From Agarophyton chilense (taxonomy: Eukaryota > Rhodophyta > Florideophyceae > Gracilariales > Gracilariaceae): a stretch of DNA of 64,000 nt. The stretch is from contig JARGXX010000111.1 in NCBI GenBank assembly GCA_030374765.1, forward strand, positions 744,001-808,000. The letters are read 5' to 3'. A model generated the notes under the pieces. The model searched no databases, was not told the origin of the DNA, and was given only the letters and a program-made list of their open reading frames with translations. Position 1 is the first letter of the stretch. Each line of letters opens with the position of its first letter. Below, piece after piece: positions 32,481-64,000 of the stretch. The translations under genes and the position numbers were made by a program.

Positions 32481-32623
32481 ACTCAGGTTTGATTTGAGCA
32501 GACTAAGCTGTCGAAAACGGGCGCCATCGACAAACCTTGAAGACGGGTCGCCACCGCGTGTACGTCTTCGTGGTGGTCACTGCAAGCATTGGTTTTGCAG
32601 ATAAGGCACGAGCGACAAAGTTT

Positions 32624-40150: not shown

Positions 40151-40506
40151 CTAAATGGCCTTAATGTATCGATCGATAAAGGAGGTCCCTAGGAATGCCT
40201 CAGCGCCTAAGTTAGGACATACAATGAACCACGTGCGGACTTTGAATTGTCCTATTCGGAGGTTAAGTGGTACTATCCCTTTAACGTCCATTGGTCTACG
40301 TGATGCATCCGTAATCCTTGGGCTCTTCCTTGCCTGAACAAAACCTTGCCAACCCATGGGATTAGCTTAGAATAGACCAAGTTGGAACCAGCGCCTGTGT
40401 CCAACACAGCTGTAGTCACTCGAGAGTTGTTGGAGCGAAGTTTTACGGTTACTCGAACATAGTTCTCTTTCCTAAGGATACAGACGGGGTCGTTACTGTA
40501 TTCCAA
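40151..40506 (-). pseudogene. Gypsy aspartic protease, frameshifted
   Basis: The active-site segment TAVLDTGAGSNLVYSKLIP shows the retropepsin DTGA triad. A second frame (40357-40151) holds the C-terminal half with a hydrophobic-hydrophobic-Gly flap-type motif (AEAFLGTSFIDRYI, matching the ILG.DFI box). The frame change between them near 40340 inactivates it. Confidence 0.75.
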
Positions 40507-40763
40507 TTATGGTTCACCCTGACTGGTCCATTGTCAGTGGTTCGTATTGGAAGGTGAGGAGCTCTTTGGCTCATTACCGTCCAATTGGTTGAGGCAGGGG
40601 CTTAAAGAGGGAGGATTTGCCTCGAGTCGTCCCTCTAGGGGTTTTCCAATGGGGTTTCCGTTTCTTCCTGAGGGTAGGATTCTTTCACGGGGTCGTCCGG
40701 AGAATCTACAATGGCATGGACCTGTGGGGCTTTGATCGGAGTATCTGGAGGCGTGGCATAGCG

Positions 40764-41640: not shown

Positions 41641-41830
41641 ACACCTTTTTGATGGCAGACCGTACGGAGCAAACTGAGAAACATAAGGACAGCAATGGGA
41701 TGGGAACGCTAGAACTTGTCCGTAATGGTTAGTTGCATCCGTTTGGCCCATTTGGCTACTATGCGAGCCACAGAACCAGAGTATTTCACACACCTTTCGG
41801 CCAGCCTGTAATTCTGGTAGTGTAGAATCT

Positions 41831-43063
41831 CAAGGGGACGGACTTAAAGCTTTTGGAGAATGGACCATGGACACAGCGTTCAGTATACAAGAAAAATTTT
41901 CAACCACCACTGGTTGAATGTTAACGAACTTGTTGCGCGGCAGAATTGGACTCATCTAAAGATACTAGGGATACAGGCAAATCACCACCTTTCTAACTTG
42001 TTAAATTCATTGTTTTTCGTACATCAGAAAGAAATATTCGATAAGTTTAGCAGGAAAATGTTAACATGGCAATTGCATATTCAAGTTTTTGAAGGTCAAA
42101 ATATCGTACAATAGTGGCCGAAACATTGCTCACTGAATATTTGCTTCGTTATAATTTTCGAAGAGGAACTAACGAAATAGATAAGAGCGGACAAAAAGAT
42201 GATATCAGCTTTTCGTGTGCATTCTCTTTTTCATACAAACCCCAACTTAGAACAACCACAAAATCGTAATCCACACCAAATCACAGGACAACGCAAATTC
42301 GGCCTTGTCCCTGTGCAAGGTGCAATACCCTGCCGCTCATCGTTCACCAACAAGGTTCTCGGCCGGACCGCACGGACTGCATGCCCTTTGATCTCTCTAC
42401 TTTTGATAAATAAATGTAGTGTTGGTCAACATTTTTATCACGACAAAAACATATTACATCCAGGACATTATCTTAATGGTCAGAAACATATACTGGGTAT
42501 TTGAAGTTAATGCAGCTGTTTCCCAAAGTAATATTAATACAAGTGAACTCATAGTTTAAATCATTTCGTTTCTGAACGCATATTATAATAAAGCGACGTA
42601 ATAATTAACATTTTTCTTTCTGTGTGCTTCTATTCTGCAAATAATCAAATCAAATTCCACGACATTCTATTGTCAATATAATGTGAATATTTGAACAGTA
42701 TATTAAAGATCACCTTTCGTTTTGATGTCAAATTGACACTTTTTACGGCGTAATACACAATAAAAACATGGCCCGGCATACAGTACCACGGGAAAAAAAA
42801 AATTTTAATTGACACGTAAGGAAGAATACTTGTTTAGTCCTATGTTATTGATATATTTGATACTTTATTATTAAATGGATGGTAATCATTAAATAACAAA
42901 CCAAAGCCGTTTGGTAGACATTTATACTCAGATCGCGTTCGGACATGCTGCAGAGAATCAGAACCAAAATAATATTTTTGCCACTGCATAAAGCTCACCA
43001 TATTGATATTTATGATTAACGGTATAGCAGGCGGAACCGCTGGATAAAGCGGTACCCCATCGG
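41831..43063. other. AT-rich stretch upstream of gypsy gag
   Basis: No gene recognised. Position suggests the 5' leader/LTR of the minus-strand gypsy element, but no matching LTR or primer-binding site was identified. Very AT-rich at 42480-42900. The final part (43020-43060) has short inverted repeats (AACCGCTGGATAAAGCGGT). Confidence 0.35.
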
Positions 43064-43345
43064 TTGGCCTTTAATTTTATCTGGTTGCTCTGTCTGTCTT
43101 GTGTGGTAAGTGCGGTGGTTGCAGCAGACGAAGTGGAGGCGAATGGTCAAGCAGACATTAGGATAAAAACTTGCAGGCTGAAGGAATGTTTTGCAACCGA
43201 TTTGGCATGTAGGAACGATGGGACAGTTAGTGCAAGCTATAACGATTGCAGAAAACGCGGATGGATGATAGGTTGTAGCACTGCTCTCTCAGCTAATGTG
43301 GTGTCACCACAGCATGCAAGACCTGAACTGTTCTGCAAAGCCTAA
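43064..43345 (+). CDS. Possible secreted Cys-rich protein crossing the duplication boundary
   Basis: The open frame lacks an ATG (starts count only from TTG; upstream stop TAG at 43025). It begins with a hydrophobic segment (FNFIWLLCLSCVVSAVVAA), good for a signal peptide cut after VVA-A. It then has spaced Cys residues (KTCRLKEC, DLAC, NDC, IGC). The last four codons (from about 43320) lie inside the duplicated sequence, so the natural C-terminus is not this one. A GTAAGT donor lies inside the hydrophobic segment. May be an exon of a gene cut by the rearrangement. Confidence 0.3.
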   Translation: MAFNFIWLLCLSCVVSAVVAADEVEANGQADIRIKTCRLKECFATDLACRNDGTVSASYNDCRKRGWMIGCSTALSANVVSPQHARPELFCKA

Positions 43346-44450
43346 AACGCAGTACAAGAAGCAGTGACCATTTTTTCGTGATGGAATTTCCAGGCATGAG
43401 ACTTGTCTCGCATTTTCGTGAGTCTTCCATGGCTTAGTTTAAACTGAATCGATATGGCCACAAGTATCTCAAAACAATAAAATCCTCGCCTCGCCAGAAA
43501 GAACGTCTGGGTGACGGGATCCAGGGCCACTCATCGTGAAATCTTACCAGACGAAATCAGCTCGGACGTTTGTCTCCCGTTAATCTGTACATTGAGCTCT
43601 ACGGTACGAGTAACTAAAGTTGTGGTATCTGTAGCGCTTATCTCGGGTTGGTCGGTGAGATGTGCTGTGAGAGACAGACGAAAAATCTGTATTCCATGAA
43701 CGCCTGAAGAACGTGACCTGTACCAAGGTGAGACTTGCTCGAGCAGAAATTGTACCAGATTGAACAACAACTTGAAGTGCATACGGTTCGTTCTGGAGCT
43801 AAAATACACTGAAGGGAATGAGAAGCACTTCAAAATCGGTTGTGATAGAAGACGAAGGATCTTCTGTGACTCCGTCTGGGGCGATCAAACTCTAAGAATA
43901 CCTGAGATTCAAGACACTCCACCCAAATGATACAAAGACGCGGAAGAACCAGCTACTGCACAGACCAAGGCAGTACGCCCCAGAAACGAAGTCGAATGTG
44001 CCATAGTTCCTGGCGATCTTGACTTGAGCATTGTTCTCTTCGTAAATGAAGAAGACTGTGTTAGACGTCGTCAAGTCAATGGTGACAGTTAATGGCTGGG
44101 AATATTACTGTCCAGCATCAGCGAGTGGTGGCGTTCTGAACTTCAATGCGCTATTGCTCACCGAAAGGATTTCAAACGCATCAATGAGTGTTGTCCCCAC
44201 CATTATGGATGATAAAACTATACCGAAAATAATGAATTGTAATGTATCCACCGTGTCTCTGTCCTCCGTCAGAGAATTAGGTGTGATAGTATAAATGAAG
44301 ACTGTGGCATCCTAAGAAAAATCAAGCTAGTTTGAAGAACATGTGACATGATGTTGTCACCTTGAAACCCATACAACTGCAATAACCTCAAGCTGTCAAC
44401 TTTAAACACATTCCACCCCACCATCAAGACGAAGAGTGCATGAAGTTCAC
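43320..44450 (-). pseudogene. Multi-exon extracellular-type gene, copy B, 3'-truncated
   Basis: Copy of the 5' exons of the gene at 13.6-16.6 kb. It keeps CAG where A has TAG (sequence VELNVQINGRQTSELISS reads through), and both short introns are preserved. All 3' exons are absent because the duplication starts here, so this copy cannot encode the full protein. Confidence 0.5.
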
Positions 44451-45693
44451 AACCGCCACAACGTGTGAGTAACATTGCAGCGTCGCTGCTTGCAATCGCC
44501 GTGCAACAAGATACTGCAGTCTTGCAGCAGCAGCGTGCCTTTCTTACGTTTCTCCGGCCGTTTTCTCGCTTCCGATGCATCACTCCAAAAGATAGAACAG
44601 TCCATATCCGTCCAAGGGTACAAGGGGAACTGCCACACGCGTCAAGTCCATTTCTCACAGTGCGCTTTTTTCACTTCTTCTCAAACAGCTAACTGCTGTT
44701 ATGGAACAGAGAGGTACCCTGATGGCCATCGGATGGGCTCGTTATGTTCTACAGATGCCTTTCTTTGCAGTTTGATATGCTTGAGATGGTCAAGGCATCA
44801 AGAAATGGGTTCTGCTGTTACGGTTGCACGGACCACGCGGCAAGGTGGTAATGTAAATATTCTTGGTGTTTCTTGTTGGTTTATTAGGCGACGGGGAAGG
44901 ATTTCTCGACGAAATTGACACGTCTGGGGAAGGAGATTGAATAGTAGCCATTGGCGATGATGGGGGCAGTTCCAAAGTGAAACTTGTTGAATCATGTCGC
45001 ACGTGTCGGTCTGACAGAAGCGTAACAACTATGGGATGGCGGAGATGCAGAAGGCCATCTATAGATCGCTTGCTTCAAATAAAGCGCGTGTCTGTTTGCG
45101 GATCTCTTGTGAGGTGATGATGGGCAGTGGCAATCTGTGGCCATAACGATCAATTGTAAAGCTTTTTGCGAGGCGGTGACGCAAGATAGTCTAAGGAACC
45201 ATTGAGGTTCTACGGTTGGAAACCGTGCTTTGGTGGATGGAGCATTGGTGGGAACAGCGGTGGCTATCAGACATCCATAGCTCGGGGGCTAGCAGGAGGA
45301 TTGAGAGAGGGTCTGGTTGCATCGGTGAAGTTCCCGTCGGACAGAGGGCCATCCTCGACAGGCGGGGCTCAGCTGGCGCGAGACTGCAGAACGCCTGGAG
45401 ATGTTATGAAGGTGCTGGCGAGGCTACACCGGCTCGTTTCTGAATAATAGTCGAACAAGGTGGAGGACAGATGCAGATGAGCAGCGGGGCGGAGAGCGAG
45501 CGGAAGGGGTTGTCGGCGTCGAGGGAGAAGAACTGTTGCAGAAGGGAAAGCGGTTTTGTTTCGCATATGGTAAGGAGAAGGGTGCCGAAAGCTGCATGGA
45601 AAGGGGAGGGATTGTTTCCCTGAGAAGAGGCAGCTGGGAGGGCGGGAGATCGAGTGGGGGTCGGCAGGGGAGTTTCGCAGAGTCAACGGTTCG
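44451..45693. other. 5' flank, copy B
   Basis: Counterpart of 16561-17800; short ORFs only, none supported. Confidence 0.3.
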
Positions 45694-46410
45694 ATGTACG
45701 TGGAGGGAACACGGACAGCGCGGACATGGCTACGCTTCTCTACTACTCTTACATTGCGCACACGTGTATTCGGCGCCATATTGTGCCCCTTCAAATGGCT
45801 GCGCTTCAGGCTCTCTCCTAATCGAAAGAACTTTACTCATGGGCTCACAGAGCTGTCTCATCTTACGAAGCGTCCGTATCGCCCTCGTCGCGACAGCCGG
45901 GCGACTGACTGCGAGAGCTCTGCCGTTTTCACATCCGCAGCTGTTTGCGAGTCGTTGTGGCCGCCGCCGAAGAAAGGCGCCCTCGCCATGCGCTACCACC
46001 CAGTGCTCGCCAGCTGGGGCTTCTTCTTTCTCTGCACGTGGGCGTTCCGGCCGTTCTTGTTCGCGTTGCTGGCCTTTGTTGCCTCCATGCTGCAAGTCAA
46101 GATAGTCTTGCACATCATTTGCATTACCGTCATCGCCATTATCGTCGGCTTTATCACCGCCGCACTGCTCCCTGCAATGCCATCTCTGCAAATAGACGCC
46201 ATCTACTCTTCCGTCTCGTCCGAAATGAGCTCTGTGAAGGACGTGGTTTTTGGCTCCGCCCAGGATGTTTACATCTGTATGCTAAACGCTGGTTTCTTCC
46301 ATGGAATCCTATTACTACCCACTCTGAATAGCTCTCTTGTACCACCCTATTTCTCAACACGAATTGTTATTCATACTCTGTGCCTCTTGACAGGCCGTGA
46401 AGGGCTTTAA
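45694..46410 (+). CDS. Hydrophobic membrane-type protein, copy B (238 codons)
   Basis: Same length, start and stop as copy A. The membrane segments persist (LFALLAFVASMLQVKIVLH, ITVIAIIVGFITAALLP, MLNAGFFHGILLLP) although many residues differ in the N-terminal 90 codons. An internal ATG at 45987 precedes RYHPVLASWGFFFL. That both frames stay open despite 8% divergence argues for past or present constraint. No family assigned. Confidence 0.45.
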   Translation: MYVEGTRTARTWLRFSTTLTLRTRVFGAILCPFKWLRFRLSPNRKNFTHGLTELSHLTKRPYRPRRDSRATDCESSAVFTSAAVCESLWPPPKKGALAMRYHPVLASWGFFFLCTWAFRPFLFALLAFVASMLQVKIVLHIICITVIAIIVGFITAALLPAMPSLQIDAIYSSVSSEMSSVKDVVFGSAQDVYICMLNAGFFHGILLLPTLNSSLVPPYFSTRIVIHTLCLLTGREGL

Positions 46411-48009
46411 GAGCACGCGCTTCTCCTCTCTTTGTAATGTTACATATCCGCCATTGTCACCGAAAAGTGTGGGTGGTACATGCGATTGACTAAAACATCG
46501 CCACAATCTTTATTTGCAGCAGCATCCAATCATTCTTCCGCCTTCGTGGTGGAACTGCTCTATAACCAGGATTCTGAATAAGATTCCTTTCACTTGTAAC
46601 GGTCGCTCTTACTTTACTCCCTTGCTTTCTATCCTATCTAATGTCCGTCAGCGTCCTAGCTGCCCATTTTCCTCGCAGTCTTAGATTATTTCTCTGAAAG
46701 ATGCGCATCGTGCCATTGTGACACGTGGAACCTCCTTATATTCCGCTTCCTACTCTGCGCTTCAGCTTGCTTTTCTCACTGCCTTAAATCATTACCCACT
46801 TGTTCACTGGCCCAAAACTCCATCGACAGCGGTTCAAGAATGGAAAGAATTTGCCAGGCAATAAATTTCAAATGCGGTGTTTCTCTCTCCCCTTATTCAG
46901 CTTCGTGTGCTTGATTCTCGAACAAGATGCACGGAAACGCCAGAAATAGCAAGGCGAAGAAATGGCAGGTTACACTTGGTACGGACTCAGACGGTGCGAA
47001 GTGTGGTTGAAAGATTTCTGAGCAGACCAGCACAGAGTGATGGGGTGGTATTACAAGACAACAGTCTAGACTTTGTAGCGCAGAAAGGCATCTGCGGTGA
47101 AAAAGAGCAGTGTTTGGACATGATGAAGAAGTCTCCAGGCGACTCAAAGTGTGTCTGACGGGGAAGGACACAAACGCAACTTAAAGTGGTACGCACTACG
47201 CCAACCCAAACAAAGACTGAGAAGTTTTGACCGCAGGAAGGGCTTCCCATTGAAGTTTTCGGAGGTAGCCATGACACGATTTCGTCGTTTTGGAAGGCTG
47301 TGAACATCCACGGCACGCCCGAGCTCCCTGCCTCGCGCCGTCAAAATCATTGAACCATACAAAAGACATACCACGGAGAAAGATCCACCATTTCACCTGG
47401 AGACGGTCCAATCAGCTCGCCGATCGGCGTGTGTTCCTCTTATGCATACCATTCCATGTTTCAAACTCTGACAGATTTGAGCAAAAACACAGCCATCGTC
47501 GCTGCCAAAGTTCTCCAAAACCACTCTCATTGGAACCTAAACACCCGCTCTGAAACGCTGGTTTGCGAATTTCGATAGTTGGCACTTCTCGTGAACCTGT
47601 CCAAAAACACAGCATATGCATCTGTAACTTACGCGAGCCACTCTCCAACTAATAGGCACTCCCACTTCCACGCATCGCCATTCCAATGCCTATCCAGACC
47701 TGAGATGAACAGAAATTTGTGAAGCCAACACGCGCTTGACTTATAGACAGGCGTGAAAATCGATACTATCGTGCGAACTACTTTCAAAACGAAATGCTCC
47801 CGATCAAAATGTTTCAAATGTGTTGCATTAAGCGAACAAACCCAATTGGATTGCGATTAGTTATCAATGACACCCCGTCTGAGAAGAACGACACTATCAG
47901 AATTGGAAACAACCATTTCTACTGACAGTATAAAGCATTCATTTCGATTTTTCTGGCAAAGATAAGTGACACGAAAGCTTCAACTCTAAACGTAAGTCGC
48001 AAATCCTGC
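46411..48009. other. Weakly coding stretch, copy B
   Basis: Counterpart of 18518-20115. The minus-strand frame 47648-47196 is kept with the same internal TGA. 46552-46640 is highly diverged from copy A. Confidence 0.3.
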
Positions 48010-48867
48010 TCATGACAAGTGACGAAAACCATTTCCGGCCATAACTCTTCTTTTTACGTTCCCACGAACACGATGACAAGCTTTGGACCTATAGAGGGGT
48101 CCATGACTGTTGGACTTGTTAATTTCTTCAGTGCGGTTTTCGCTTGAAGACGGATGAGTAAAATTGGATCGACGCACAACTGGAAACGATACTGTACGAT
48201 AACTCTGGCCGTTGATATCTTTTTGGGCCTGAGCACAAGATTCGGATTTCAACTGTTGCTGCTGTCTTTTTCTTTAGAAAATAGGAGCTGGGAGAATCTC
48301 ATCTTCACCTAGGTCGAGAAGTGTCTCTGTGTGGCAAACCTCTTGCTCAGCGTGCCTTTCTCTAATGTTTGCATCTTGCAGCGATTGTGCACTGCTTGTT
48401 GCGAGACTGGTATTGTTGGCAGCTTGCTGGTCAGAGCCACCTGCATCACTTTCGATGTGTGATACAGTCTCATTCTCGTTTCGGTTCCGCAAAATTCTTC
48501 CACCATAATAGTTACGACCCCGTCGGAGACTCTATTGAATGAGAAAGTTTACGGCCCATTGTCCTTCAAATATTCTCAAGATTCGGATATTATTTTCTAT
48601 TTTGGAACGTAGTTCAAGAACAGCTGAAGGATGTTCGCCAACCAAAATGTGGTAGATAAGCTTCCCATCATCAGGAATGGATCAAATGAAGTATATACAC
48701 TCCCTTATACTTCTAGTAGCGGAAAAGATAAATTCCTCCGATATGGGATGTTCCGGATCATATTCGCGGCCTTCCAAAACTGACATTCTCCGGTTGAAGT
48801 TTTCACGCATTCGCCACTTTGATCCATTACCTTCTACGCTATGTTTATCCAGACGACTTAATTCCAT
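48010..48867 (-). pseudogene. Unknown gene divergent from the TNP2 transposase, copy B
   Basis: Same frame as 20116-20973. Here the first part is intact (ELSRLDKHSVEGNGSKWRMR, where A has a stop), but a TAG replaces Glu in the QESLRRG segment. The TGA after RECIYFI and TAA after LPAPIF are shared with A, i.e. older than the last homogenisation of the copies. Confidence 0.5.
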
Positions 48868-49456
48868 CTGGGTCGGAATTAAGATGATGTGATCTTCTGC
48901 AAGTAAGGCATCTGCATTCCCATATTGCTGTTGAGACTGACTCTACTGACATGGAGGACACATGGCCAGCTCAAACAGTGGAATAACGAAAGCAGACGAC
49001 GATCATGAAACAGGAATAGGGAAAAGCACGTCTGAAAGCTAGTAAACAATGGGGAAAAGCAGCGGAGACAGATCGTGATGGCATAGAAACCAGGAGAGAA
49101 GTTGGGGTGGCCGGTGGGTACTTACACTATTTTCCCGCGTAAAGTTTCGTTTCGTTCAAGGCGGGAACTTTTCCTCTACCTTGGGTATCACTGCATCGAT
49201 ACCAAGAATACGTGCTGCTACGCTGCGGTTTCATCTTTTTTTCTCATGTCATTCGACTGAAAGTCAAATTCAGTTGGAGCTTTAAATAGGGCACCGAGAA
49301 GACGGTTTTGGCAAAATGCAGGTTCCAGAGCAAGTGAAGGCTACGTGCCCCGAAAGAGTGCTTTTTTTCAAGAAGTCCATCACAGAAGCAGCTTGCGGAG
49401 TGAATCTCTGAGAAGTGGATCTGAATCTTTGAAAAGGATATTACAACAAACTGGCA
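48868..49456. promoter_or_regulatory. Shared spacer between divergent transposon genes, copy B
   Basis: Carries the same inverted pair of E2F-like boxes (49130-49139, 49160-49167) as copy A. Confidence 0.35.
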
Positions 49457-52400
49457 ATGCGAATAGGACCCTCGAAGAAGAGACTCAGAAGCATAAGAGA
49501 CAGCGGAAATCTTCTGAGCCTGAATCACCGCAAGTCACGCATTAGGCATATACAGTTCTGGAAGAGCAGGAACTTTGTACTGGAGGCTAAAACCAATACA
49601 GAAATGAGTCTTATTCATTTAGACCATGAGCAAGAGGAAAACACCATCAACGCGCCATCCAATGATACATGTGGAGATCCTTTCGCAGGCTGCAGCGATT
49701 CTTTGAATCCGGGAATTCGGGAGGATGTACATATCGACTTTCCAACATCTTCTGTCCCTGTTCTTGTACAACAAACTGTTGTGGGCACCATAAGGGGCGC
49801 AAATAAGCGGAAAGACGAGATTGGATTCCCTTTTCCGAATTCAGAAGATCCTATAAATGATTGGCAGCCAGATGGAAGAAAATGTTCTGTGGGTTTCGGA
49901 AGTGAATGAATAAGGCAATGGGATGGTTGTTGGGGAGAAATTTGGTCGAGGCCACCTCAAGGAAAAAGCGGTGCCTTGAAGCAGATTGAAACAAAGAGGC
50001 TGCTGGAAGTTCTTTCAATCATTGAGTATGGTGGACGTTCAGAGAATCAATCTCTTAGGTTGCTTCAAACAGCGGTTATAGGTTCAAAGTGTAGCTACGA
50101 CGCCATTATGAAATTTGAGAGGCGAAGATTTGGAGTTTGACGCTATTTTGTGGTCATGTGCAAGGAAGAACACGGACCTTGCTTTGAGAAGCACCCTAAC
50201 AACAATCGTTGCCCGACTGGCAAACGCAACCTTACAGTAATAATTCATAGAACATATTAGTACAGACTGGTTTCAGACCAGATAGCGGCACTTTGCAGAG
50301 AGAGAAATTCTTCCCGAGCCTTGTGGAAGGGATGCAAAGATGCATATAACGCAGCACTGGGAACCAATACTGATGATCTCTTTCTCTATGACTTCTACGA
50401 CGGCAAATTCTTTCTAGACTTACACATGGAGCGACTGTGCACGTGGAACGAAGACGACGAGTTATATGTTCTCTTTCAATTCTCTTCGGACGGTGTTGAA
50501 ATGTGTAAGGGGTGAAAGATGACAAACTCTCTCTGGCCTCTTATGTTCACCATTCGGTACTCCAGTCCGGAGTACCAATTCCGAGCTTCAAACGTTTTGT
50601 TGTATGCCTTAGTTCCCGGATCTCACGACACTGAGCTCTTTTACTTGTTCTTGTCGCCTCTAGTCAACGACATTGTAAATCTGCAAAAAGGAGTTAAGAT
50701 GTACTGCAACGACAGGAAGTTAAGGACAGTTTATATTTACCTCCTATTCTTAACAGAAGACTGGCCTGCAGCCAGCAAAATGCTTGGAACGAATGGTTAT
50801 AATGCGGAGTTTCCCTGCAGAAAATGTCACAAAAGAGCTCGGAGAGCATCTCACGGAGGAAATAGTCTATGGATGTTACCTGAATATACCCACAGTAGAC
50901 GCCTCAGTAGATTCTCGCCAAGAAGCAGACCGGAAGCTTATATTGAAGTAGAATGTTCACAGTTGCGTAATGCAAATGAATTTTTGCTAACATGGAGTCG
51001 GCTGGAGAGATCTGCCAATAGAAACGTGCAGGAAAGAATTATAAAGAATACAAGAATCAAGAGACGTACAGTACTGGGAAAGCTCGAATTGGATATACTC
51101 AAATATGTGCCCTATGATTCTATTCACCGATGGCACCTAGGCTCGGTAAAACATTTGGATGTTCTCAGCATTGGTACACACCGAAAGTGCGAACCTGGCA
51201 AACACAATTTCGTCGTTCAGGACGGCGTTATCCAGAGTATCAACGAATCGCTTTCGTCTGGTTCCACGGGAGTTCTGGAAATATGGGGGCGCCCTCCGGA
51301 ATCGTTCAAGTACATTGGGGGGTTCAAGGCGAAGGACTTCCAGATTTTGGCACTGTTTTACGGACCCTCTCTAATTAACAACAGCTCGATCGATGAAGGG
51401 CTGGCCACTATATGGAGTTGGACGTCCAAAAGTATGCATATTCTTTTCAACACGGTGCCTACAAAGGACGATATACTCCGACTGAGAGAACTGGTGGTAC
51501 AAGCTCATTCATTGTTTGTGACCTATTTCTACAACGATACCTCTTCCGTGTTTTGTCTCATCCCAACTCGGCAGGCCACTCTCCACTTTCCTGAATAATT
51601 ACAGAAATGTGGTCCTCTACATAACATATCCCAGTTCATTGTTGAACGTGCAGCGCAGAGTTTGGCTGACATTTTGATATCCAAGCAACGGCCAGAAGCA
51701 AACTTACTCCACAAAACACATACCGTGTTTGCCTTGCAAATGTTTGATGGCGGGATGGGGTTCAAGAAATGGAAAGCAGTCAACGAGTTGAGCACACCGT
51801 GAAACCATAATCGGAGACTCCCAAATTCGCATTTTTTGAACAACTAAGAATCCCAGCAACACGAGACTGAAGAGCTGAATGGTACAAGCAAGACCATGCC
51901 ACAGACAGCTGTGTCTCGTGTAAAAATCTTCGGCACTCGCTCGAGGGTAGGAGGACCGGAACGTTTTAGGCAAGTGAAAGAATACGTTGGGTTATCTCTT
52001 CCAAACACTGCATAGGACATTGAGCTAGTGAGTTTGGACTTGTACCCCTCACTCACAATGTCAGTCGATGATATAACTCTTAAAATAGAGTGTTTGGCTA
52101 TATTTTTCCGTCGTTAAAGACAGGGTATGCATAAAGCCCGAAAGCGATGCTGGGTGGCAGCACATTTTGAGCCTGAAGACTCTGATGACGTACGAAAATG
52201 AGATGGTTCTGAAATGCAACCGTTCGACGTTTATTATGGGGTCACAGATGAGCTTCGGCAGGTCAAAGTCTCGTATCAAACGTCACTGGAGCAAATAACA
52301 TACTCCAGAACCTACCAACTTTCAAGGGTCGATTGGATGTACGGAATCTTGTTTGACCGCATCACAGGGCAGTGGTACCCCCGCTTAACTGGAGCACAGC

Positions 52401-52672
52401 GCAATGGTACCATTCGAGACAAAAGAAAAACTCTTGAGGACCTTTCTTGTATCAAGAGAAACATCGGTTTTCTGGACTACAACGGCCGTCGAACCTTCTT
52501 CGATTCCGTGGATGAAATATTGTTCATGAAACTGGAAGACAACGCATTTACGAAGAGGCGTGGAAGAAATGCATTCGTGATGAGCAGTGGAACGTCATTG
52601 ACAAAGGTGCGCCGATGTGCGAGGAAATCTAACGTTGAGTGTGACAGGTCGTCACGAAGAAATACGAAATAA
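49457..52672 (+). pseudogene. TNP2-type DNA transposase, copy B
   Basis: Same frame throughout 1072 codons, as in copy A. The longest open piece, 50519-51598 (359 codons), spans the core TNP2 domain from NSLWPLMFTIRYSS to CLIPTRQATLHFPE. B-specific stops are TGA 49907 (Gly in A), TAG 50258 (Trp in A), TGA 50513 (Arg in A) and TAA 51596 (Leu in A). At least six others are shared with A, including the TGA after RRRFGV and stops in the 3' third. Neither copy can make a transposase. Confidence 0.85.
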
Positions 52673-52930
52673 TGGATACGATATAGACAGCACAATGTGA
52701 AATACCAGTATTCGGAGGCCAACTGCACTTGATATCTACATTCCATGTTCAGGGTTCCATGGCATCAAATGTCACAAAATATTTACCAAACTTAATTTGC
52801 TGCTAGGTCAAATATGAAAGACTTCGATTGGATGATCTTGATGCCAGACGGGCATCGTAAGGGTATCTTAAGAAAATCTCTTTTTTACGGACGTAAGAAA
52901 CTGCTGCGCACCCAATGCACATATTGTCGG

Positions 52931-54289
52931 TCACCAACTGCACATCAATAGTGCGTCCATTGTAGATACCATGTACATCCGAAGTACATATTTTGAGGTA
53001 ATCTTTTGCGTATTTTCTGTAATTTCAATGTATATCATTTTGCTTCCAAAATTGTTTGAAATTGACGTCAAAAATGAGATAATGTTGGATATCTTTGGGA
53101 AACTATGGCATATCAAATTGCCTCTTTGGGTCGAGGTTCACCACTGAAATGATGCGATCCATTTCTTTCATAAATTGCATTCTCTCAGTCTCTTGGACAT
53201 AAGTGACTGTACGTCTTCTTAAAGCCTCACCCATTGCACCGTGATTTTCTTGGTACGCTCAACAAGTATATATTTTTTGGCTATTTCCCGCAAATCCTAA
53301 CAATTGATTCTGGGAAAGGCTGAGTCGGATGTGTCGTTCACACCAATGGTGCTTGATGTATCTTTCTCAGATGAAACAGCCATCTCACCATTGTGACTCT
53401 CGCCCTTGAATCGCTCTTGGACTTCATTCCTTCCTCACTGTTACTGAACTTGACCGGGAAGCACTTCTCGGAAAGTGGCTAAGACTCTTCGGAGAAGTCA
53501 CTCCACGCGAATGGAAACAGATAATCCATAAAATTCATTTCGTTCTTTGTCAAATAAAGAATCGTTTTTCAGCTGTCTCAAGTTGTTCAAAACGGATGCT
53601 TACCTCTTCTATTGGTATTTGTTGGGTAACAGCAATGGGAGAATACTACAACGATAAAATCTAGACAGAATTGCGCCTATTCTAGTGAAGGGTTTGAAAT
53701 CTTTCTCGCGTCGTACAAGCTCAAAGTCAATTCTTCCAGCCGCTTTATGGAAAACAAACATAAAACAATAAAGCCTGATGCCTCGATTATTCATTCCGGA
53801 ACTCTACAAATTGATTACCAAGAATATTGGTGGATAAATTATTGAAACCGAGTTCAAGGTACTTCCACGCCTGTAGAAAAATGAAATGAGATTGCGCAAG
53901 AATCCACAACGACGCACATGTGCTTCTTGAAAACAACAGGCTTTGCTGAGCTCAAACGGCTCCAGTCTAGGACGCCTGCTCACCCTCGGACTCTTGAACA
54001 ACATTAGCAGGGTTGTCGGTAATGATACATCTCAAGCTTCTCATGGTTATTTGCAAATCTTTTCGGCGAAGATCATTTCAAATATTGTGACTTGTGGAAT
54101 CTTGACAAATCTTTTTACGATGTCAGATGATACTGGCTTCCCCTTATGGTGCTTAAAGTTTGACAGCAGATGTGACATTTGAACCTCCTTCAGTGAACAT
54201 CTATTGTAGTTTTTAGCAGCTAAAAGGCCCCGACTAACTTTGTCACCGAGATTTTGACCTTCTCCAAGTGCATGCGATGATTCTTGCAA
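52931..54289 (-). pseudogene. Frame-coherent unknown pseudogene, copy B
   Basis: Counterpart of 25036-26394, nearly identical; two of its ORFs (54289-54047 and 53794-53609) encode exactly the same peptides as in A. Same stop-only interruptions. Confidence 0.4.
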
Positions 54290-55065
54290 GAACTCTAGTT
54301 ATCGTTCTTCTATAAGCTCTGAAACAATAAAAGAATCTGATGATTTTTGGTAACGACATCGAAAGTGGTTAGAGTGAGTAATGTTCGAAAGTCAGTGCAA
54401 TTTTCTTTTCGCCGGTATTGAGCCATGATTACAACTGCACTTGCACGGCGGCAACTAGAATTTCTTCAGATGGCACTCGATGTAGAAGGTTCCTTGACGA
54501 AAAAGAGGGATTGCACAAAAACGCCAGGTAACGTACAGCTAAATTCCGAGGATATGGAGGGATGAATGACGACAATATTTTCATTGTGTGTTTCTCTTTC
54601 TGACATACGTACATCGTCTTGCTATAGTTTCAAAAGAATCGATTAAATGTGTTCGACTCCCGTCACCCTTGGGCTCCATAAAGACGTGGTCTTCCAAGTC
54701 ATCTGGGACGTGGTGAGCATTGTCTTTTGTGTTCGGCAATTATGTCCTCTTCGCTTGCCGTGCAATTGTATTAGAGTTTTTCTCTTACAATGGCGCTTCA
54801 AGATCATCCTCTGACTTGTTACGGCAATATTGTAAAAGAACACAGAATGATGGAGATATTCCACCCATTTATAGATTCTGATCTGCCTCTAGGTGATGAG
54901 CATTGAGTGGGCCTTTCATTTTCGCAGTTTGTGGCTGTCCCATTGATCGCAGAGGCGGTTGATTGATTTCGAAGAATTTTTCTCGACGTAAGTTAGAATA
55001 GCGCAGTGCTCAAATAGTTACAACATCTGCAACTACTCCCAATTCATGATACCACAACACCACCA
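54290..55065. other. Weakly coding minus-strand stretch, copy B
   Basis: Counterpart of 26395-27170, including the 61-codon ORF at 54614-54429. Confidence 0.3.
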
Positions 55066-55559
55066 CTAAATCACCACAATAATGAATAAATCGTCGTTAG
55101 AGACAAATCTTAAAACAAGAGTACTGATATCAGCGATATCCACGATTATAAGCCCTATTTGGCACAGCTTTGTTCCAAATTCTTTACGGCAACGCCGTCG
55201 AGCTCTTTCAAAACAATTGCGGAATCGAGATTGCACTACGATCCCGTTTGGTATTCTCTGAGCCACGTTGAATCAGTTTCTCCAATTTCTGAGGTTTGCA
55301 TCTAAGCGTACAACTTTCACAGTAGAGTTCCTACTACACAAGTCTTTCTACTTCCAGATACCAACGCCATTTGAAGTTCACGAATACAAACGATTTTTGA
55401 GAGAGCAAGATGATCCTTACCGCGACCTATTTCATCAGTTTTTCTAGAATCCGCTTGAATGTCGATGTATCTATACAAATGTTTTTTGGACCTCCTCTGA
55501 ATACTGCCATTGCGTTGTATCTTTTGAACAGTTTCGAATTTGAGCACTAGGAATTTCAA
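55066..55559 (-). pseudogene. Two-exon-like unknown coding region, copy B
   Basis: Counterpart of 27171-27664 with both ORFs open and several amino-acid changes (for example YIDIQADSRKTDE). Confidence 0.35.
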
Positions 55560-56460
55560 GTATATTCATGTATATGGTTTTTCTACTCATTTTCTCTACT
55601 ATGAAATATAATTCCTCTTTCGAAAAGGCAGATGGTGTTATGAGAGCGGTGTATTTCGGTACATTTGAACTTTTTGAATAGCCTAATCATGTGTAGGGAG
55701 CAGCTGTTGGCATGTTTATGAACGGCAAGGCAACTGTACTTGTTTTAGGTGCTTCGGATTAATTGTTGTCCACCGATATTAATCGAGCTCAAAATTATTA
55801 CATCGTCAGCAGTCTCGATCCCGACACGACTGATACTAAGGGTTTCTCAAAAAAAACATGTATGCATTGAACTCTGTTCTGCAAGAAGTAACCCTTGACA
55901 ATACTGATACCATACATAGGCGGTCTGTTGTGCTTTTCATTAGAATTCAATAATGATGGCATTATAACTCGAACCGCTGAGATCTGAAAAAGAACTCCGA
56001 TGCAGAATCAGGAACATAAGAAAGTGTGTCCATGTCTTCTACGTACCGCCTTCCACAGGAATACATTCGTCCATTTTTTTCAGATTATGGACTACAACAT
56101 TCTCTTGATAAGTACTAACTTTCTTTCTCTGTGTGTCGATACTTGCGCCTTTCGTTACCACATTAACACTTTTAGAATTAAAGACAGCAGCAATACGCCC
56201 CTCATCACAATAAACTTTTTTTTATGTCGTCTTTGAATCACTTCAAAACTGCTCACAGCAAACACCAAGAACTGAACGACGCTTCAAACCCTTTAATTTT
56301 ACAATATTGATGATTTTATGTGGCCTTTGAAACACTTTTCCTTTCTTTTTTCCGCCTCCTATATCTTTTCTACGTTTTAAAACGTTATAAGTCTTGCAAA
56401 AGTCGTACCTTTTTCAGCATTCGACGTTCGAGGAACTTAATTGCTTAGGCGACATTTATC
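55560..56460. other. No firm gene, copy B
   Basis: Counterpart of 27665-28560; AT-rich, diverged from A, with single-base indels. The A-strand Harbinger-side ORF at 28375-28145 is not open here over its full length. Confidence 0.3.
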
Positions 56461-56676
56461 TTTTGTTAATTTTTCATTCTTGAATGCAAAAACGTGGAGC
56501 TTCATGCAAAGTGCTACATATCTCAAACTAAAGAAACCGAGCTTACCAGACCAGATTATAAAATTATCCCTTGCGCTACAATAATTCCAGAAGCGTCCTC
56601 AACGCAAGTACACAAAGAAAAATGAAAGTAGTTTACCCCACATTCTGAAATGTCACAAATCTTTGACACGGGAATC
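56461..56676 (-). pseudogene. Harbinger transposase remnant, copy B
   Basis: Retains only the part after the GD..Y box, corresponding to A 28567-28783. The rest of the gene is gone; the cut is exactly at the telomere-like filler. Confidence 0.65.
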
Positions 56677-56700
56677 GGGGTTTAGGGGTTTTAGGGGTTT
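56677..56700 (+). repeat. Telomere-like filler at deletion junction 1
   Basis: 24 nt on the plus strand: G4-T3A-G4-T4A-G4-T3. The left flank matches A up to 28783 and the right flank matches A from 35155/35156. The filler is absent from copy A at both places. Its first 21 nt are identical to the filler at 63110-63130. Confidence 0.9.
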
Positions 56701-57716
56701 AGCTAGAACGAGCACACTTTAAGAATGAATGTGGCGACAGAGATTGAAAGCAGTCGTCAAAATATGCCATTTCCTCTCAAAAAAATGGGAATCTGGAAGG
56801 TAACAACTTTCTTCTACTCAAGATACTGCGGACGTTTGTAGATCACAAATTATTTCTAATGGTTTTAGCGAAGACTTTTCTATTTAAAAAGCCAAAATAT
56901 CATCCAGCTTCAATAATCTGATCACATGCTTTTTAAATATGCATCTAGTTCCTACCGTCTTGGTTACGAACCCTTCGTAGCGGCGCCATTGTGTGGAACC
57001 ATGCAAGTTGTTTCTTAGTAAAAACTTCAAAGCGCATATCAACTAAGAAATCTTTAAAGAGCACAATGCATTGTACTGGTCGACATGCATCGTATATTCT
57101 TAAACATCGATTCTGCAAATCTCCGTGCTCCCGTGGCTCCTTTGGAAACCATATTCAATGCCATTGAAAAGGTAGAAGCCTGTAGAAGGTTTTCGTATCC
57201 GTGGCATGTTAGCGCCTTAGTCTTCGACGATCTGTAAGAAGTATTGATTATGAAACAACCACAGAGAGCTGCAGGCTTGTCGTATATACCGTAAAAAGTT
57301 TGTCGTATTCAACAGGTAATATACGGAACCAAGTGCGCTATCGGAATATAGGGTTCTCGATTCCACTACAAAATAATAGGAGACGACGTCGAGCAGTCTT
57401 CCAAAGACGGCCGTCTGGACTTGTACAGGGCCGCTACCAATATAACTCATTGATATTCTTAAATATTCCGTCACAATTTAATTCTAGACAAATGAAGTAC
57501 ATAGCATGCCTGTCATTCGGACATCCGTGATGTTTTAACCCAGAGCCTGCGTAGGGATTATTATTTCCGGAGACTTGACAAAAAATTGACGCCTCTGCGA
57601 TTGGTCAACGAAAGCTGTACTCCACCTCCTTGTGGTGTCGACTGGGCAGCATAAGCTGGCTAGCGGAGTAATTCAAGGAAGGATTCCTGTTGGAGAGGGA
57701 AGTGATCAGACCTCCG
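56701..57716. repeat. Segmental duplication, copy B, block 2
   Basis: Direct counterpart of 35156-36172. Confidence 0.9.
57217..57474 (-). CDS. Conserved 85-codon ORF, copy B
   Basis: Counterpart of 35673-35930, open at the same length (VQTAVFGRLLDVVSYYF). Function unknown. Confidence 0.3.
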   Translation of the reverse strand: MTEYLRISMSYIGSGPVQVQTAVFGRLLDVVSYYFVVESRTLYSDSALGSVYYLLNTTNFLRYIRQACSSLWLFHNQYFLQIVED

Positions 57717-58514
57717 TAGGCCAGTGATCCCTATTATGTTGGTTTGTTTTTGCAAAATTCTTGGGACTTGTTTCAATTTTCTGAGAAAATTAAACTATCG
57801 GTATTTTAAGGCCAGGCGTTACGGTATGCTTTTGAAAATTAATTTTTTAAGGCTAAGTGCAACGATATGCAGAGCTTATGTGAGATCCCATATTGGTTTT
57901 TGTCCATTGGTCTTTACTGGTATTCTTTGTGTTAGATTCCGGAAACGCGATTATGTAAGGGCTTTCCTTAATTGTATGATCAGGGATTATTCTCCATGTG
58001 CACGTTTACCATCAGTGCGACCCTAGAAAACGCATGAAAGTCTTATTCGGCTGGGGGTTCTGCGTGTTTTCCAATCGAGTCTTCTAAGGTTTTTTTAAGT
58101 TGTATATTGTAGGCAACGGTTTTTTGTGATATTGGTGTTTGATTATTGAAGGGTTTTCTGAAGAAGTGTTGTTCAAATTTTGCTACCAAGCGCCTTTTGT
58201 ATTGACGTAAGGCGGGGGTATTTAGAGCACCAAGACCTGTCCAGTAGTAACAGTGGGTAGTGTTGCCGAGGCACGAATCTCAGGATCCTGGCGGATACGA
58301 GGCCCGGACCAAATTCCACTTGTATTGACGTCGGGTGACGACTGGACCTATTTCAGTCGCGCGTCCAGGCTGGAGCAGCCCTCTTAAACACGCAAGCCTG
58401 TACTAAGGGTTAAATTAGTCTCGAGGACGGAATGGGTTGACCTTACTCAGAGGTGATTAACCTGCAATAAATAAAGTATCAAAGTGCAGGGCTCTCGGGC
58501 AGGACATCGAGGGT

Positions 58515-59615
58515 ATGGGGATGGATGCTTTGGGCATCCTAAGAGAAGCGTTTCGGGTTAGGCTTTTAGCTTCCCTTGGGGAAAAGTCGCAAATTAGATA
58601 TGCTCTCCTTCGTGTCATCAGGAATGTGATACCGGGGATCCCTAAAATGGGTGAGGTGGATACCTTATTACGGTGCATGGAAGATAAAACACACCCACTA
58701 CGTTTCGAAGGAAGTGCGCCGAAGGAGGGGTCTTATAGGAAAGTAGCGAGTACTCGAGTTGTAACCGGCTCGGATCAGAAAGCCGGAGAGCGTTCAAAAC
58801 GCAGACCGGAGGGCAAAGAGGGTGAGTCCTCAAGTGAATACGAGTCCGAGTCCGCTCCAGATTCCGACTCAGAGGAAGAAACTGCTGCCTGCTTCAGTAA
58901 AATGCAAAGAATTCTTTCTTTCATGGAGGGGTTAGAAAAGGTGCATAAGCGCAGGACTAGGCTGATAAAGGAATTGAAGGAGTCGCAGAAGAGTTGGAAG
59001 GGAAAGCCACAGGGGGAGGATTTTCTTGGCAACGTCAGACAGGCGATGAGTGGGATTGTTATTGATTCCGGCAATGTTTCTAACTCACAGTCCGATGACT
59101 GCGATGAGGACGTTTCGAACCTCGCAAGGAAGATTTTATATTTGAAGCAACAGAAGGCTAACCAGGAGTTCTGGGCTGCTTTGGCTAGCAAACCGTTTCC
59201 TGAACAACATGTTTCTGTTGACAGTCTCGAAGGTGAAGATATGCTCCGCAAAGCCCTGACAGACTATCCGACGGTATCTGCGTGGGCTGAAGCTTGTAAT
59301 TTGACGGGCATTCGGAAAGGCCGGGAAGCTGCAATGCTGACTCGGGTTATTGACTGCTTCATCAGCTCGCTGGCCGTAGTAAGAGCAAAAAACGAGTTGG
59401 TAGTGGAGTTAACAATTCGTAGGTTGGCGGCAGTTATAATGGGTGATAAGAATAGAAACTGAGAAGCGGTCAGAGATCGCGACGAGGAACACGATGATTT
59501 GATAAGCGAGTCAATGAATCGTAAGCTTCGCAATCACAAGTCGGTAAAACTTCGAAAGAAGTTAAAGGAAAACAAGTCAGCCTTGCCTGATCAAGGTGAC
59601 GGGAACGAAGTATAG
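58515..59615 (+). pseudogene. Gag-like protein of unrecognised retroelement
   Basis: A 315-codon ORF (58515-59462) continues in frame after a TGA to a TAG at 59613, 366 codons in all. N-terminal helical part (RLLASLGEKSQIRYALLRV), then a Ser/Glu/Asp-rich acidic linker (ESSSEYESESAPDSDSEEE), a Lys/Arg-rich helix (KRRTRLIKELKESQKSWK), a C-terminal helical domain (LTDYPTVSAWAEACNLTG, FISSLAVVRAKNELVVELT), and a very basic tail (NRKLRNHKSVKLRKKLKE). The arrangement fits a capsid/nucleocapsid-type protein of a DIRS- or LTR-like element, but no RT follows inside the block. No Cys-knuckle is present. Alternative: a host nuclear protein. Confidence 0.4.
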
Positions 59616-59739
59616 AAAACAATATTAACAGCAACTGCGGTTATTAATTCGATGGGCATGCAAAATGTGCTTCCTATAACAGAGTCGGCCGATAAATAGG
59701 GCGGGCATACGAAGAAAGAAAACACACCCTAATGACAAA

Positions 59740-60230
59740 AGTGAAGACACAAGAAGAGGATTCCTAAGCATACCTGAGGGACTTCGAAGTGTGCGCATTT
59801 GCTTATATACCGAGCAAATTCACCCCTCTCTACTGGTACAAGAGAGAAACGCTGTCCAAACGGCCTGGCGAGCAGTTCTTGCAAGGCACCGGGGATGATT
59901 CAAATCGCTGGAATTTTCTGGTTGCGGAGGAGTCCGTAGGAGAGGTTGATTCTACGTTTGAATACGATGACCCAATCAATGGGTCGTTCTGAATCCAGAT
60001 CTAGTATTATTGCCAGAAATATTTCTGGCATTCTCGATGGGTATATTTCACTATTACCAAAAGATACCCAACTAAAGTATATGACAAAAATTACGCGATG
60101 TGAAAGAGAGATCGAGAGGGCTAATAAGTTTATTTGCTGGGGAGAAGGCTTGAGGATATCAAGAACTTATAGGGAGTTGAGGGGGTGAGCTGAAACGGTA
60201 TATGAGACCGCGAAAAAGATCGACTAGCTG
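59740..60230 (+). pseudogene. Second coding-looking segment of the B-specific block
   Basis: Two overlapping frames: DFEVCAFAYIPSKFTPLYWY and RWNFLVAEESVGEVDSTF (to a TGA at 59990), then IIARNISGILDGYISLLPKD and KITRCEREIERANKFI (59946-60188). Probably the downstream half of the gag-like gene or a second protein, split by a frameshift. Family not recognised. Confidence 0.3.
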
Positions 60231-61359
60231 ATGAGGAAGGAGAATCCCGATTACGATTGTAAATCGGTTTTAGGGATACAATCGACGAAAGGAACTCTAT
60301 CAGCCCTTAACAAAACATCCTCGTCAAAACGCCAGGGATTCTGAGCGCATACACCAGTGCATTCACATCCTTCACCGTGCCGCTGCAAGACTGGGCCGGG
60401 GGTTTGGGATGATCATGTGGAAACTTTGACCGAAATTCGTTTAAGTCAGTTCGTCAGATGTCTGAATCACCGAATTCTGACACTCGGAATCAGTTTTCTG
60501 AAAAAATCGTCAAAACAGAAAACTCCTTTTTGAAATATCAATTTAGAGCTTGGAACCTATATCACAAATGGCATGTGTATTTGGGAATATAGTAGTGGGT
60601 TTGGTTGTGGGAGCTGAAATGGGTTGTTGGTCTAGGATTTGTTTTTGGGGAGTGGGGGTGAGCTAACTGAGACTTGATTAATTTCTGGTTAAGTCGCGTG
60701 GATGCCATGGCGTGGTAGTTTAAAAACACTATAGCTCCGTATAAAAAATTGAATAAATGTTGTCAAATTCTGGTTTTTACATTGCCAATTATTACTTAGA
60801 ATGCAAAGCGATATAGTACGAGCGTAGCGAGCTGTCACTGTAGTCAATGAGAGGAAATGTCCTTTAGAAGTCTTTAGGATATTCGGAAGACGTTAATAAA
60901 TGGCATTTGTTAAATCTCCAGCCTATATGTCTCCGATTTCTCAATGAGGTGTAGAATTATTTCGCTTACATCATCAAACAACTAAGTCCTTAATCTAATA
61001 CCACTCCATAACATTATAAAGTCTTATAATAGAATATATTCTTATGGCTAGGTTAAGAAAAAAGATTAAGCTAAGCAGGTTGATAATTATTTGTTTGAAG
61101 TGGACGTCGCTCTTATGTATTTGACCAACTTCAATCTCAACCCCTTAATAAAAAGATTCAAGATAATCCCTTGCCTTGATGGACTCTTACAATAATAAAA
61201 ATACTAAGTTATAAATACTTGGATCAAAAAACAAAGCGCCGTGGAGAGGGTCTTACATTAATGAATCTTGAGATCCAGAAAGACCTTTAAATGTATCTTG
61301 ACAAAGGTGGACTAGGTCCAATGGAATTAAAAGGATTGAGACCTACGCCATGTGTCGGT

Positions 61360-62080
61360 TTAGGTCATGGGCCGAGCTGTTGGAGATCCAACAGCAGGGT
61401 TTTCTACCCTGTACTTGGATAACGTACGATTATCGCTGTTTTTGTTTCGACAACGAATGGTAATTCGACGATTCGGCATTGCAGAACAAAAACAGTCCAA
61501 TCCATGTACAACTTTCGTGTACATGGAAGGGCCTGTACTACACAATCTTGACACAGGCCACGTCCACGCCTGCAGGCCAAACCCAAGAGTGGTCATGAAC
61601 TGCTGTCTTCGATTTATCTCGAGAAAGTGACTTCCTCGCTTTCGCTGGGATTTATAAGAACAAATATCACGTATAGCGGAAGCGATCATAGTTCTATAAT
61701 GGCATCGTCTACTTATTGGTATCTTTGTAATTATGTTCGTGGATCCATGGGAATCATTCGAGACCTCGCCCGCGTACATTATGCAAGGAAGTCGTTAGAA
61801 CTTATCCATCTTTTGATTGACGTCAGCGTGAGCGGAGTATGAATTGGAGACGCTTGAAGTAGACAAAGATTCGCGTGCAATCCTGTCGGCCATCATTCCC
61901 ATTCCATCGCAGGAAGCTTCTCAGCCAGCAACATTTCCAGGGATTGCTTCAACGACACCAACTGCGTCAAAAACATGTGCTTTTCTCAGTTCATATGCAT
62001 CTTGTACATCGAGGCCTTAGTTTTGTTGCGGTTTTTCCAATCTTTCTTGTTTCCATATCGCATTTTCATTGTATGAGAAT
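61360..62080 (+). pseudogene. Repeat-borne protein fragment, copy B
   Basis: Counterpart of 37063-37780. A 3-nt deletion removes the Arg in the TYWRYLC motif (TYWYLC here) and keeps the frame (61627-61842). The minus strand also has a 139-codon ORF (61779-61360), but codon-position evidence from the 7-kb copy favours the plus strand. Confidence 0.4.
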
Positions 62081-62720
62081 TTCTCTGAGTGTTTTTAGTC
62101 AGCACTGTTTACACTTTGGGAGTCCACTGATTGGCTTAAAGCAAATGGCTCGACCAGAATGTTCTGTTTTCTGCCTTGCCACCAACGAATTCTCCTTCCA
62201 GGCATCTGTTCTGTGACTTTCTCCTAATTCTGGTTTTATTATGCTTGGTCGTCATCGTTCGAAAACGGAACGCTTCTGCTATGAGGCGATATCTCCTAGC
62301 GACGCCGTTTCCTTCCTTTTGCTTGAGACATGATGATTTCAAAACTTCGACTTAAATCCAGGGTTCTATCGACGTTTAGAAATTGTTGGTATCATTGAGG
62401 TTATTCAATGAAATATCGGAGTCAAATTTCTGTTTATTGTTATGAACGATGGTAGGTATTTATCTCACTAGCAAGAGTTCTACTGGCTTTTGAGGTGTGC
62501 ACAATGAGCTCCAAAATTTGACCCGAGTTTTTCTAAAACTGGAATATTTAAAAGTTCGTAATTTTTGTTTTAACTCACTCTTTTCACTTGGTATCCGATG
62601 CGGTTTATCTACTCCTCCAGCTTCCATCCTCTCCATCGGGCGAGTTCTTCCCTCCGTTTTCTGTTTCACGTGGGTAACATTTTCGTCCTTCCGTACAATC
62701 TTCTGAGTGCAGCGTTCTTT
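62081..62720. other. Unassigned part of block 3, copy B
   Basis: Counterpart of 37781-38430; short ORFs only. Confidence 0.3.
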
Positions 62721-63109
62721 TCAAACAGATAACTCGCGCAGGTGCCAGTCTTCATAGGTCGCCATCATCAAAGATATCTTCTGGAGTACGTGTTTACACA
62801 AGTTATATGCATTGACCTGGATGCTTTTCTTTCGCTCCGCGCTGCTGAGCGTTCTGGTCCAGTAGCCTATAGGTCGATAGTCCTTCGGTGACTCCTCTTC
62901 CTGTAGCAGTGCACAACCCACTTGTAAATCAGAGGCATCTGCGTCCAGGAAGAAAGGCCTATTAGGCTTTGGTAAACCCAATATCGGTGGGTTTAGCAAT
63001 TTGTTCTTTAGGGTCTGAAATGCCTCGTACTCGTCGTCGGCAAGGGCTTCGAACTCCGAAGCTGTTCCCTTCTTTAGCGTCGCGTTGGGAGAGGCCGAGA
63101 TCTTGGCGA

Positions 63110-63130
63110 GGGGTTTAGGGGTTTTAGGGG
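63110..63130 (+). repeat. Telomere-like filler at deletion junction 2
   Basis: 21 nt on the plus strand: G4-T3A-G4-T4A-G4, identical to the first 21 nt of the filler at 56677. The left flank matches A to 38815 (GGCGA); the right flank matches A from 40797 (TGCCC). Confidence 0.9.
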
Positions 63131-63135
63131 TGCCC

Positions 63136-63162
63136 TTTTATACATTCTTTCATACATTCTTT
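63136..63162. repeat. 12-bp tandem duplication next to filler
   Basis: ATACATTCTTTC occurs twice in direct tandem here; copy A (40806 onward) has it once. It begins within 10 bp of the telomere-like filler, suggesting it arose in the same repair event. Confidence 0.8.
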
Positions 63163-64000
63163 CGGATCTCTGCCCCCGGTTTTTCTCTTCGCTTAGTGCT
63201 CGGACGGTTTTATACGTGCATCGTCAGGCAGATACCTCGTACAGTCACAGGTTTTGGTCACTGAAGGGCAGAGGAAGAGGGCCCTTGGAAAGCGAAAAAA
63301 AACGTCCTTGCGGAGCGGAAAGGGAGAATACTTAGGTGTGGGTGGTCCAGTGGTCGCTGTAGTTCCCTGTAAGGTATATGACGGGAGCCCGGACGGAGGA
63401 GCACTGGAATTGACTGCGAGGCTATCTCCCGAATCGACGGACTGGAGTTATGCATCCATGTCCGAGGCCGTGGAGCTAACCCAATGGGCTTGGTTGGGTT
63501 TGCGTAATGGAGTTCCATGTCCTCTGGTTGTATCAGCGTTGCACCTAGAGGTCCTGTAGGTTTTTCCATAACCCTCGGCTTAGGTAACGAGTCGTCGCAA
63601 GGAGTATTACGGGTTTTCCGTGTTGTAATAGCGAACATGTGTCCGAATGGCAGGGATAAATCCCGTGATGAAGTGACGTTGAAGCCGTCTCTCGGAGAAC
63701 ACGTTTCCACATCGGTAAGCCTTCTTCCATAGGTCGTCTGCGAAAGCCGATTCGTTCATGTTGGAGCTCTGCCTAAGCGATATTCCTTCCTGGTGGGCAT
63801 CCATTATGACTTTATTCGTGGCATAAGTTTCCAAGAGGTAAAGAACAATCTGAGTGTAAGACCTGAAGATCTCACGGTCTTGAGCATCCACGAGATCAGT
63901 TGTGCCAGATATCTTCGAACCACTCGATCACGCGCCTGTCCTGTCAGGAAGAATTGGAAAAGGTACAGAGCGGGGCCCTCGTGGACACCTTTTTGATCGC

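Follow-up and report, generated by a model that had tools for sequence, protein, structure and literature searches.

We analysed a window of 64,000 nucleotides (nt) from the 79.8-Mb, 135-contig genome assembly of the red alga Agarophyton chilense (GCA_030374765.1; contig JARGXX010000111.1, positions 744,001 to 808,000; G000:C111:744001-808000), in which one copy of a tandemly repeated unit lacks two intervals that its sister copies keep and carries, at each of the two joints, a short insert of telomere repeat, hereafter the filler. Seven further loci of the same genome have like joints. We consider it likely that these fillers are scars of double-strand break repair, in which telomerase primed on the broken end and end joining followed.

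Two intervals missing from copy B of a tandem array

The window holds two tandem copies, A and B, and comparison of the stretch after the window places a third, copy C, from C111:809663, where B ends. The features at issue, in window coordinates, are as follows.

15426..43319, plus strand: tandem copy A (27.9-kb unit; self-alignment, 94-97% identity to B)
43320..64000, plus strand: tandem copy B, running past the window end to G000:C111:809663 (self-alignment)
28790..35154, no strand: interval 1 (6,365 nt), in A and C, missing from B (alignment)
38816..40795, no strand: interval 2 (1,980 nt), in A and C, missing from B (alignment)
56677..56702, plus strand: joint 1 filler, GGGGTTTAGGGGTTTTAGGGGTTTAG; GGGTT on the left (5 nt, past one C/G difference) and TAG on the right are common with native sequence
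63110..63130, plus strand: joint 2 filler, GGGGTTTAGGGGTTTTAGGGG; a single A is in register on the left and a single G is shared on the right

The absence of both intervals from B, reported in a first-pass annotation of the window made from the letters alone, is confirmed with the refined limits above: the bases of A are kept in B up to 28789 and again from 35155, and up to 38815 and again from 40796, when bases common to filler and flank are assigned to the flanks. Copy C is intact at both sites, being 97% identical to A through interval 1 and 92% through interval 2. Two inverted paralogues (80% identity) also cover the right part of interval 1 together with its right boundary. For interval 2, the comparison comprised 42 sequences, namely A, C and 40 other retrotransposon matches (40 of 688 candidates scored). 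Thirty-six of these 40 form one unbroken match that starts near query position 237, reaches the end and crosses both break positions; the remaining four are pieces of two interrupted copies, of which one piece also crosses both breaks. In A, a frame that matches retrotransposon domains runs over position 38815, where the left break of interval 2 falls:

38373..39116, minus strand: retrotransposon reverse transcriptase / RNase H frame of A (Pfam RT_RNaseH_2, RT_RNaseH, RVT_1)

Since C keeps both intervals and 36 of the 40 other matches listed keep interval 2, the comparison of copies shows that B lost DNA at both joints.

The 21-mer GGGGTTTAGGGGTTTTAGGGG occurs exactly at 56677-56697 and at 63110-63130, both on the plus strand, and is absent from A; nowhere else in the window does it match with up to three mismatches, and none of 100 shuffles contains such a match. 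The filler of joint 1 starts at 56677, as annotated earlier, and ends at 56702 instead of 56700; its GGGTT and its final TAG can be read as flank as well.

One further large difference between A and B lies between the two joints:

57717..60469, plus strand: 2.75-kb segment of B with no counterpart in A, where it would fall between 36172 and 36173 (alignment)

We considered this segment as a third event in B and rejected it, since the start of the segment (about its first 600 bases) is also found in copy C. For the same reason A is probably the copy that changed here, by loss, and its joint at 36172/36173, which serves as a contrast to those of B, has no telomeric filler.

Two other observations concern the surroundings. 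The inverted paralogues (L042, G000:C111:723975-729823; L041, G000:C111:841166-847014), 80% identical to window 32600-35989, flank the tandem array, one on each side. Immediately to the right of joint 2, at window 63135-63163, B has a 12-base direct duplication, CTTTCATACATT, of which A and C have a single unit each.

Identity of the filler with the genome's telomere repeat

Contig ends of the assembly bear mixed T3-4AG4 arrays; contig C1, for example, starts with about 790 bases of CCCCTAAA and CCCCTAAAA units. T3AG4 and T4AG4 outnumber all other units in every one of six arrays, and GGGC variants are present too. The filler had been described as resembling a T3-4AG4 telomere repeat, and with the same units at the contig ends it can be identified, by its sequence, as the species' own. 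A profile search of the genome returned one Telomerase_RBD match of 107.8 bits (cut-off 25) in a 1158-aa open frame, and no match above cut-off in 14 control genomes. A telomerase (TERT) gene is thus present as judged by its RNA-binding domain profile, and telomerase activity is predicted.

The two fillers were earlier said to be too similar for chance. This holds for the occurrence of telomeric sequence at both joints, as about 4e-5 chance copies of the 21-mer are expected in 80 Mb at uniform composition, but is overstated for the identity of the fillers to each other. T3-then-T4 makes up about 18-26% of adjacent T3/T4 pairs over the six arrays (percentages computed by hand), for example 19 of 78 and 28 of 146 pairs in the two C1 arrays, and two unrelated three-tract telomeric fillers would have the same T3/T4 order with a chance of about 0.3 (also by hand). 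The identity therefore carries little meaning once both fillers are telomeric.

Other sequences accompany the telomere arrays. A satellite of about 360 bp lies in tandem beside the terminal telomere array and ahead of an internal array (L017, L020; G000:C1:1-7023). Between telomere arrays at G000:C1:6560-12200 lies a reverse-transcriptase element (L110) with CCCCTAAA repeats on both borders; its two units, arranged in tandem, are 99.8% alike over 2,488 nt and each contain a 602-aa frame barely above the RVT_1 cut-off (30 against 29.6 bits), and the whole looks like a non-LTR (long terminal repeat) element that inserts into telomeres.

Genome-wide survey of short telomeric tracts

With at most one mismatch the 21-mer occurs at 1,652 places genome-wide (872 + 780). 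Abundance at sites unrelated to deletions had been named beforehand as a point that would speak against a link with the joints; the 21-mer is indeed abundant, but among the places listed, which lie on the first contigs, all except three are clustered in arrays, and of these three isolated places two, whose flanks were inspected, are subtelomeric minisatellite. A pattern of three G-tracts ending outside an array was found at 18 places, of which 13 end in GGGGAA, suggesting a dispersed element that ends in the 21-mer. This candidate was rejected: the flanks of eight of the 13 were inspected and all eight are minisatellite with telomere-like units, of which the fillers studied here are not part. 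The minisatellite consists of degenerate telomere-like units (TTTTAGGGGAAGCTTTACC and variants; L022, L023, L025-L028, L033, L037, L089), lies within about 80 kb of contig ends at the places listed, and explains the inspected isolated 21-mer matches, arrays and the window's own joint apart.

The three-tract pattern bounded on the left was found at one place only. A pattern of two G-tracts preceded by CC at no more than 20 nt was found at 61 places and its reversed control at 10; the right-bounded pattern was found at 212 places (100 of them listed) and its control at 16. We examined 17 tracts from the two-G-tract pattern, along with one minisatellite place, and four more from the right-bounded pattern. 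L073, L075, L080 and L083 were dropped as array starts or a G-rich run, which left 13 + 4 = 17 candidate tracts. Usable comparison copies exist for seven of these, and all seven tracts mark a junction with no counterpart in the copies. As to the rest, L077 was set aside, its homologue being no more than 56% identical; for L101 and L103 no copy was scored among the 40; and L074, L079, L081, L082, L085, L100 and L102, compared only with sequences already retrieved, gave no usable match. Most of these last seven tracts (about 12-17 nt) may be chance matches, because the reversed controls themselves gave 10 places against 61 and 16 against 212.

At the seven comparable loci the change takes several forms. 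In L076, a 20-nt filler replaces 91 nt of the same retrotransposon region, and in L072 about 25 nt are inserted relative to a 73% homologue with a few bases changed, a near-clean insertion. In L087, about seven native bases, which read GAGTCCA in three of the five aligned copies and differ from it in the other two, stand where the locus has 21 telomeric bases; these start after native AGGGGTT (AGGGGT in one of the five); all 37 other scored matches align over the site and are 13-14 nt shorter there, the other three of 40 being query sites. The filler of L084 is absent from all five aligned copies, four of which run from the same TTGGGG into other sequence, while its right side is too diverged to compare. 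In L071, an integrase-like repeat, the alignments of all 39 other scored copies break off no more than 8 nt from where the filler starts, and three copies read at the site continue ATGG|TATTG. The alignment of all 37 other scored copies of L086 ends at query 196-201, the filler starting at 201, and the 76% homologue of L078 ends at the filler although more homologue sequence is available. The alignments of L071, L078 and L086 are counted as truncation at the filler and not as measured deletion.

Together with both window joints, nine of nine comparable loci (L071, L072, L076, L078, L084, L086 and L087 being the others) have a filler-less counterpart, the inserted filler being accompanied by deletion, by truncation or by hardly any other change. 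The losses extend from about 0 to 6.4 kb, and the fillers, 17 to 33 nt long, differ in their ends.

In-register bases and the origin of the fillers

If telomerase extends a broken 3' end, native bases next to the filler on the 5' side of its G-strand may fit the repeat register. On this left side we count five such bases at joint 1, one at joint 2, two in L071, one in L076, four in L084, one in L086 and seven in L087; L072 and L078 were left out of these counts, their homologues being only 73-76% alike. At least one base is in register at all seven well-compared loci (P ~6e-5, against 25% per base) and at least four bases at three of the seven (P ~2e-6), or at two of the seven (P ~3e-4) with joint 1 counted as none. 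The left register thus exceeds 25% per base. On the right side, readable at four loci, three bases are shared at joint 1, one at joint 2, one in L076 and none in L087. The longest shared runs (7, 5 and 4) are all on the left, as would be expected if telomerase extended a 3' end and end joining came next.

Based on these observations, we propose that a break with loss of DNA would leave a 3' end on which telomerase would prime. Native bases matching the template, namely GGGTT at joint 1 and one A at joint 2, would help this priming, about two repeats would be added, and end joining would ligate the extended end to the other side. We infer synthesis of the filler by telomerase, as opposed to copying or capture of a telomere fragment, and closure of the break by end joining. 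The use of telomerase or telomeric templates in break repair, one of the options raised in the first-pass annotation, gains support from the telomere repeat, the TERT domain and the seven like joints.

Several points weigh against the proposal. The register counts are a small set, made by eye after the loci had been seen. Three of the four readable right-hand sides also share at least one base, though none reaches four, and because of this the left-right asymmetry is suggested and not shown. The single C/G difference at joint 1 stands right before its GGGTT; joint 2, L076 and L086 have a single in-register base each, and that of L076 counts as one by copy C and as none with copy A as the ancestral state. 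For L084 and L087 alike, four of five aligned copies give the value stated (L099 is without the stretch and L091 has 6). No telomerase RNA was identified from which to read the template register; we noticed no inserted telomerase-RNA sequence beside the fillers, and the window joints have no added non-native bases.

The strongest alternative, which we nevertheless hold to be unlikely, is that end joining with microhomology took up a telomeric DNA fragment, or a complementary DNA of telomeric RNA (TERRA), into the break, with no telomerase acting on the broken end. Its product would be identical to that of the telomerase route, capture of reverse-transcribed telomeric RNA has been proposed for some mammalian cases (PMC7215372), and this genome has long telomere arrays as well as a reverse-transcriptase element inside them. 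The one to three bases shared at three of the four readable right-hand junctions also fit capture. However, capture predicts like sharing on both sides, whereas the longest runs are confined to the left. It further predicts that tracts start anywhere in the unit, whereas all nine assessed loci start at GGGG (four of the nine after an A that possibly belongs to the tract) and their ends vary; L101, a tract without comparison copies, starts TAGGG. We had considered this fixed start as proof of telomerase and dropped it, as the GGGG is partly native in L084, L087 and L071; it is kept as a supporting detail.

An assembly artefact, with a collapsed repeat misjoined, had also been raised; assembly is difficult for tandem copies of 94-97% identity, and the joints are known from the assembly. 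We regard it as very unlikely, since several fillers sit inside individually diverged repeat copies on other contigs with precise boundaries, and a misjoin is not expected to give telomere sequence in register with the native end. Least probable of all is the footprint of a mobile element or a programmed deletion system, suggested by the recurrence of one 21-nt sequence at joints separated by 6.4 kb: this identity is already expected with the chance given above, losses, flanks, filler lengths and ends differ among loci and include one near-clean insertion, no constant boundaries, target duplication or shared flank motif were seen among the nine loci (by eye, with no formal motif search), and A's own 2.75-kb difference has no filler.

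Returning to repair by telomerase and end joining, the two events in B possibly stem from one shared damage episode. Finding two scars so close together is somewhat unexpected: for 20 random loci genome-wide about 0.03 pairs of scars within 6.4 kb are expected, and for 40 loci about 0.13, the locus numbers being guesses from the survey counts and the pair having been noticed before the estimate. A wider proposal, which we put forward only tentatively and would not expect to hold in full, is that telomerase takes part regularly in break repair in this genome and leaves tens of datable scars in multi-copy repeats, the two scars of B recording one episode in which both breaks were extended before rejoining.

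Comparison with known systems

In de novo telomere addition, or chromosome healing, telomerase primes on a broken end via a few matching bases. The joints described here differ in that the end was rejoined on the same chromosome, leaving 17-33 nt at the nine assessed loci. They belong to a known class, the interstitial telomeric sequences left by break repair. The published accounts of mechanism drawn on here are mammalian, and cases elsewhere may already be published; a 2002 paper reportedly deals with interstitial telomere-like repeats of Arabidopsis.

In rodents and primates, short telomeric inserts occur at double-strand breaks, and the change seen most often in their flanks is deletion (50% of rodent and 52% of primate loci), while 75-77% of rodent loci have at least one in-register base and 17% have four or more (Nergadze et al. 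2007, PMC2246262). The loci of A. chilense are alike in having a short telomere-repeat insert relative to a filler-less locus, and the left-side register excess is the test used for those mammals. They differ from what is described there in the T3-4AG4 repeat, the 80-Mb genome, the comparison of paralogues within one genome and the one loss of 6.4 kb, and a telomerase-RNA-derived flank was not seen. In Pyricularia, telomere relics and MoTeR elements comprise internal telomere motifs, deletions centred on relic loci and retrotransposons in telomere repeats (PMC8381367); unlike there, we saw no element sequence next to the present fillers.

In the horse, each insertion is described as a single-step event whose flank changes are those usual in end joining, and telomerase or telomeric-RNA routes are proposed (Santagostino et al. 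2020, PMC7215372). The horse loci were compared with donkey or rhinoceros loci and between horse alleles, whereas tandem paralogues serve here. The present loci extend the evidence for a possible action of telomerase at internal breaks to a genome with a T3-4AG4 telomere. As dispersed repeats offer dozens of intact copies of some sites, a single genome suffices to read the ancestral bases at a break, and priming and template register thereby become testable without a sister species.

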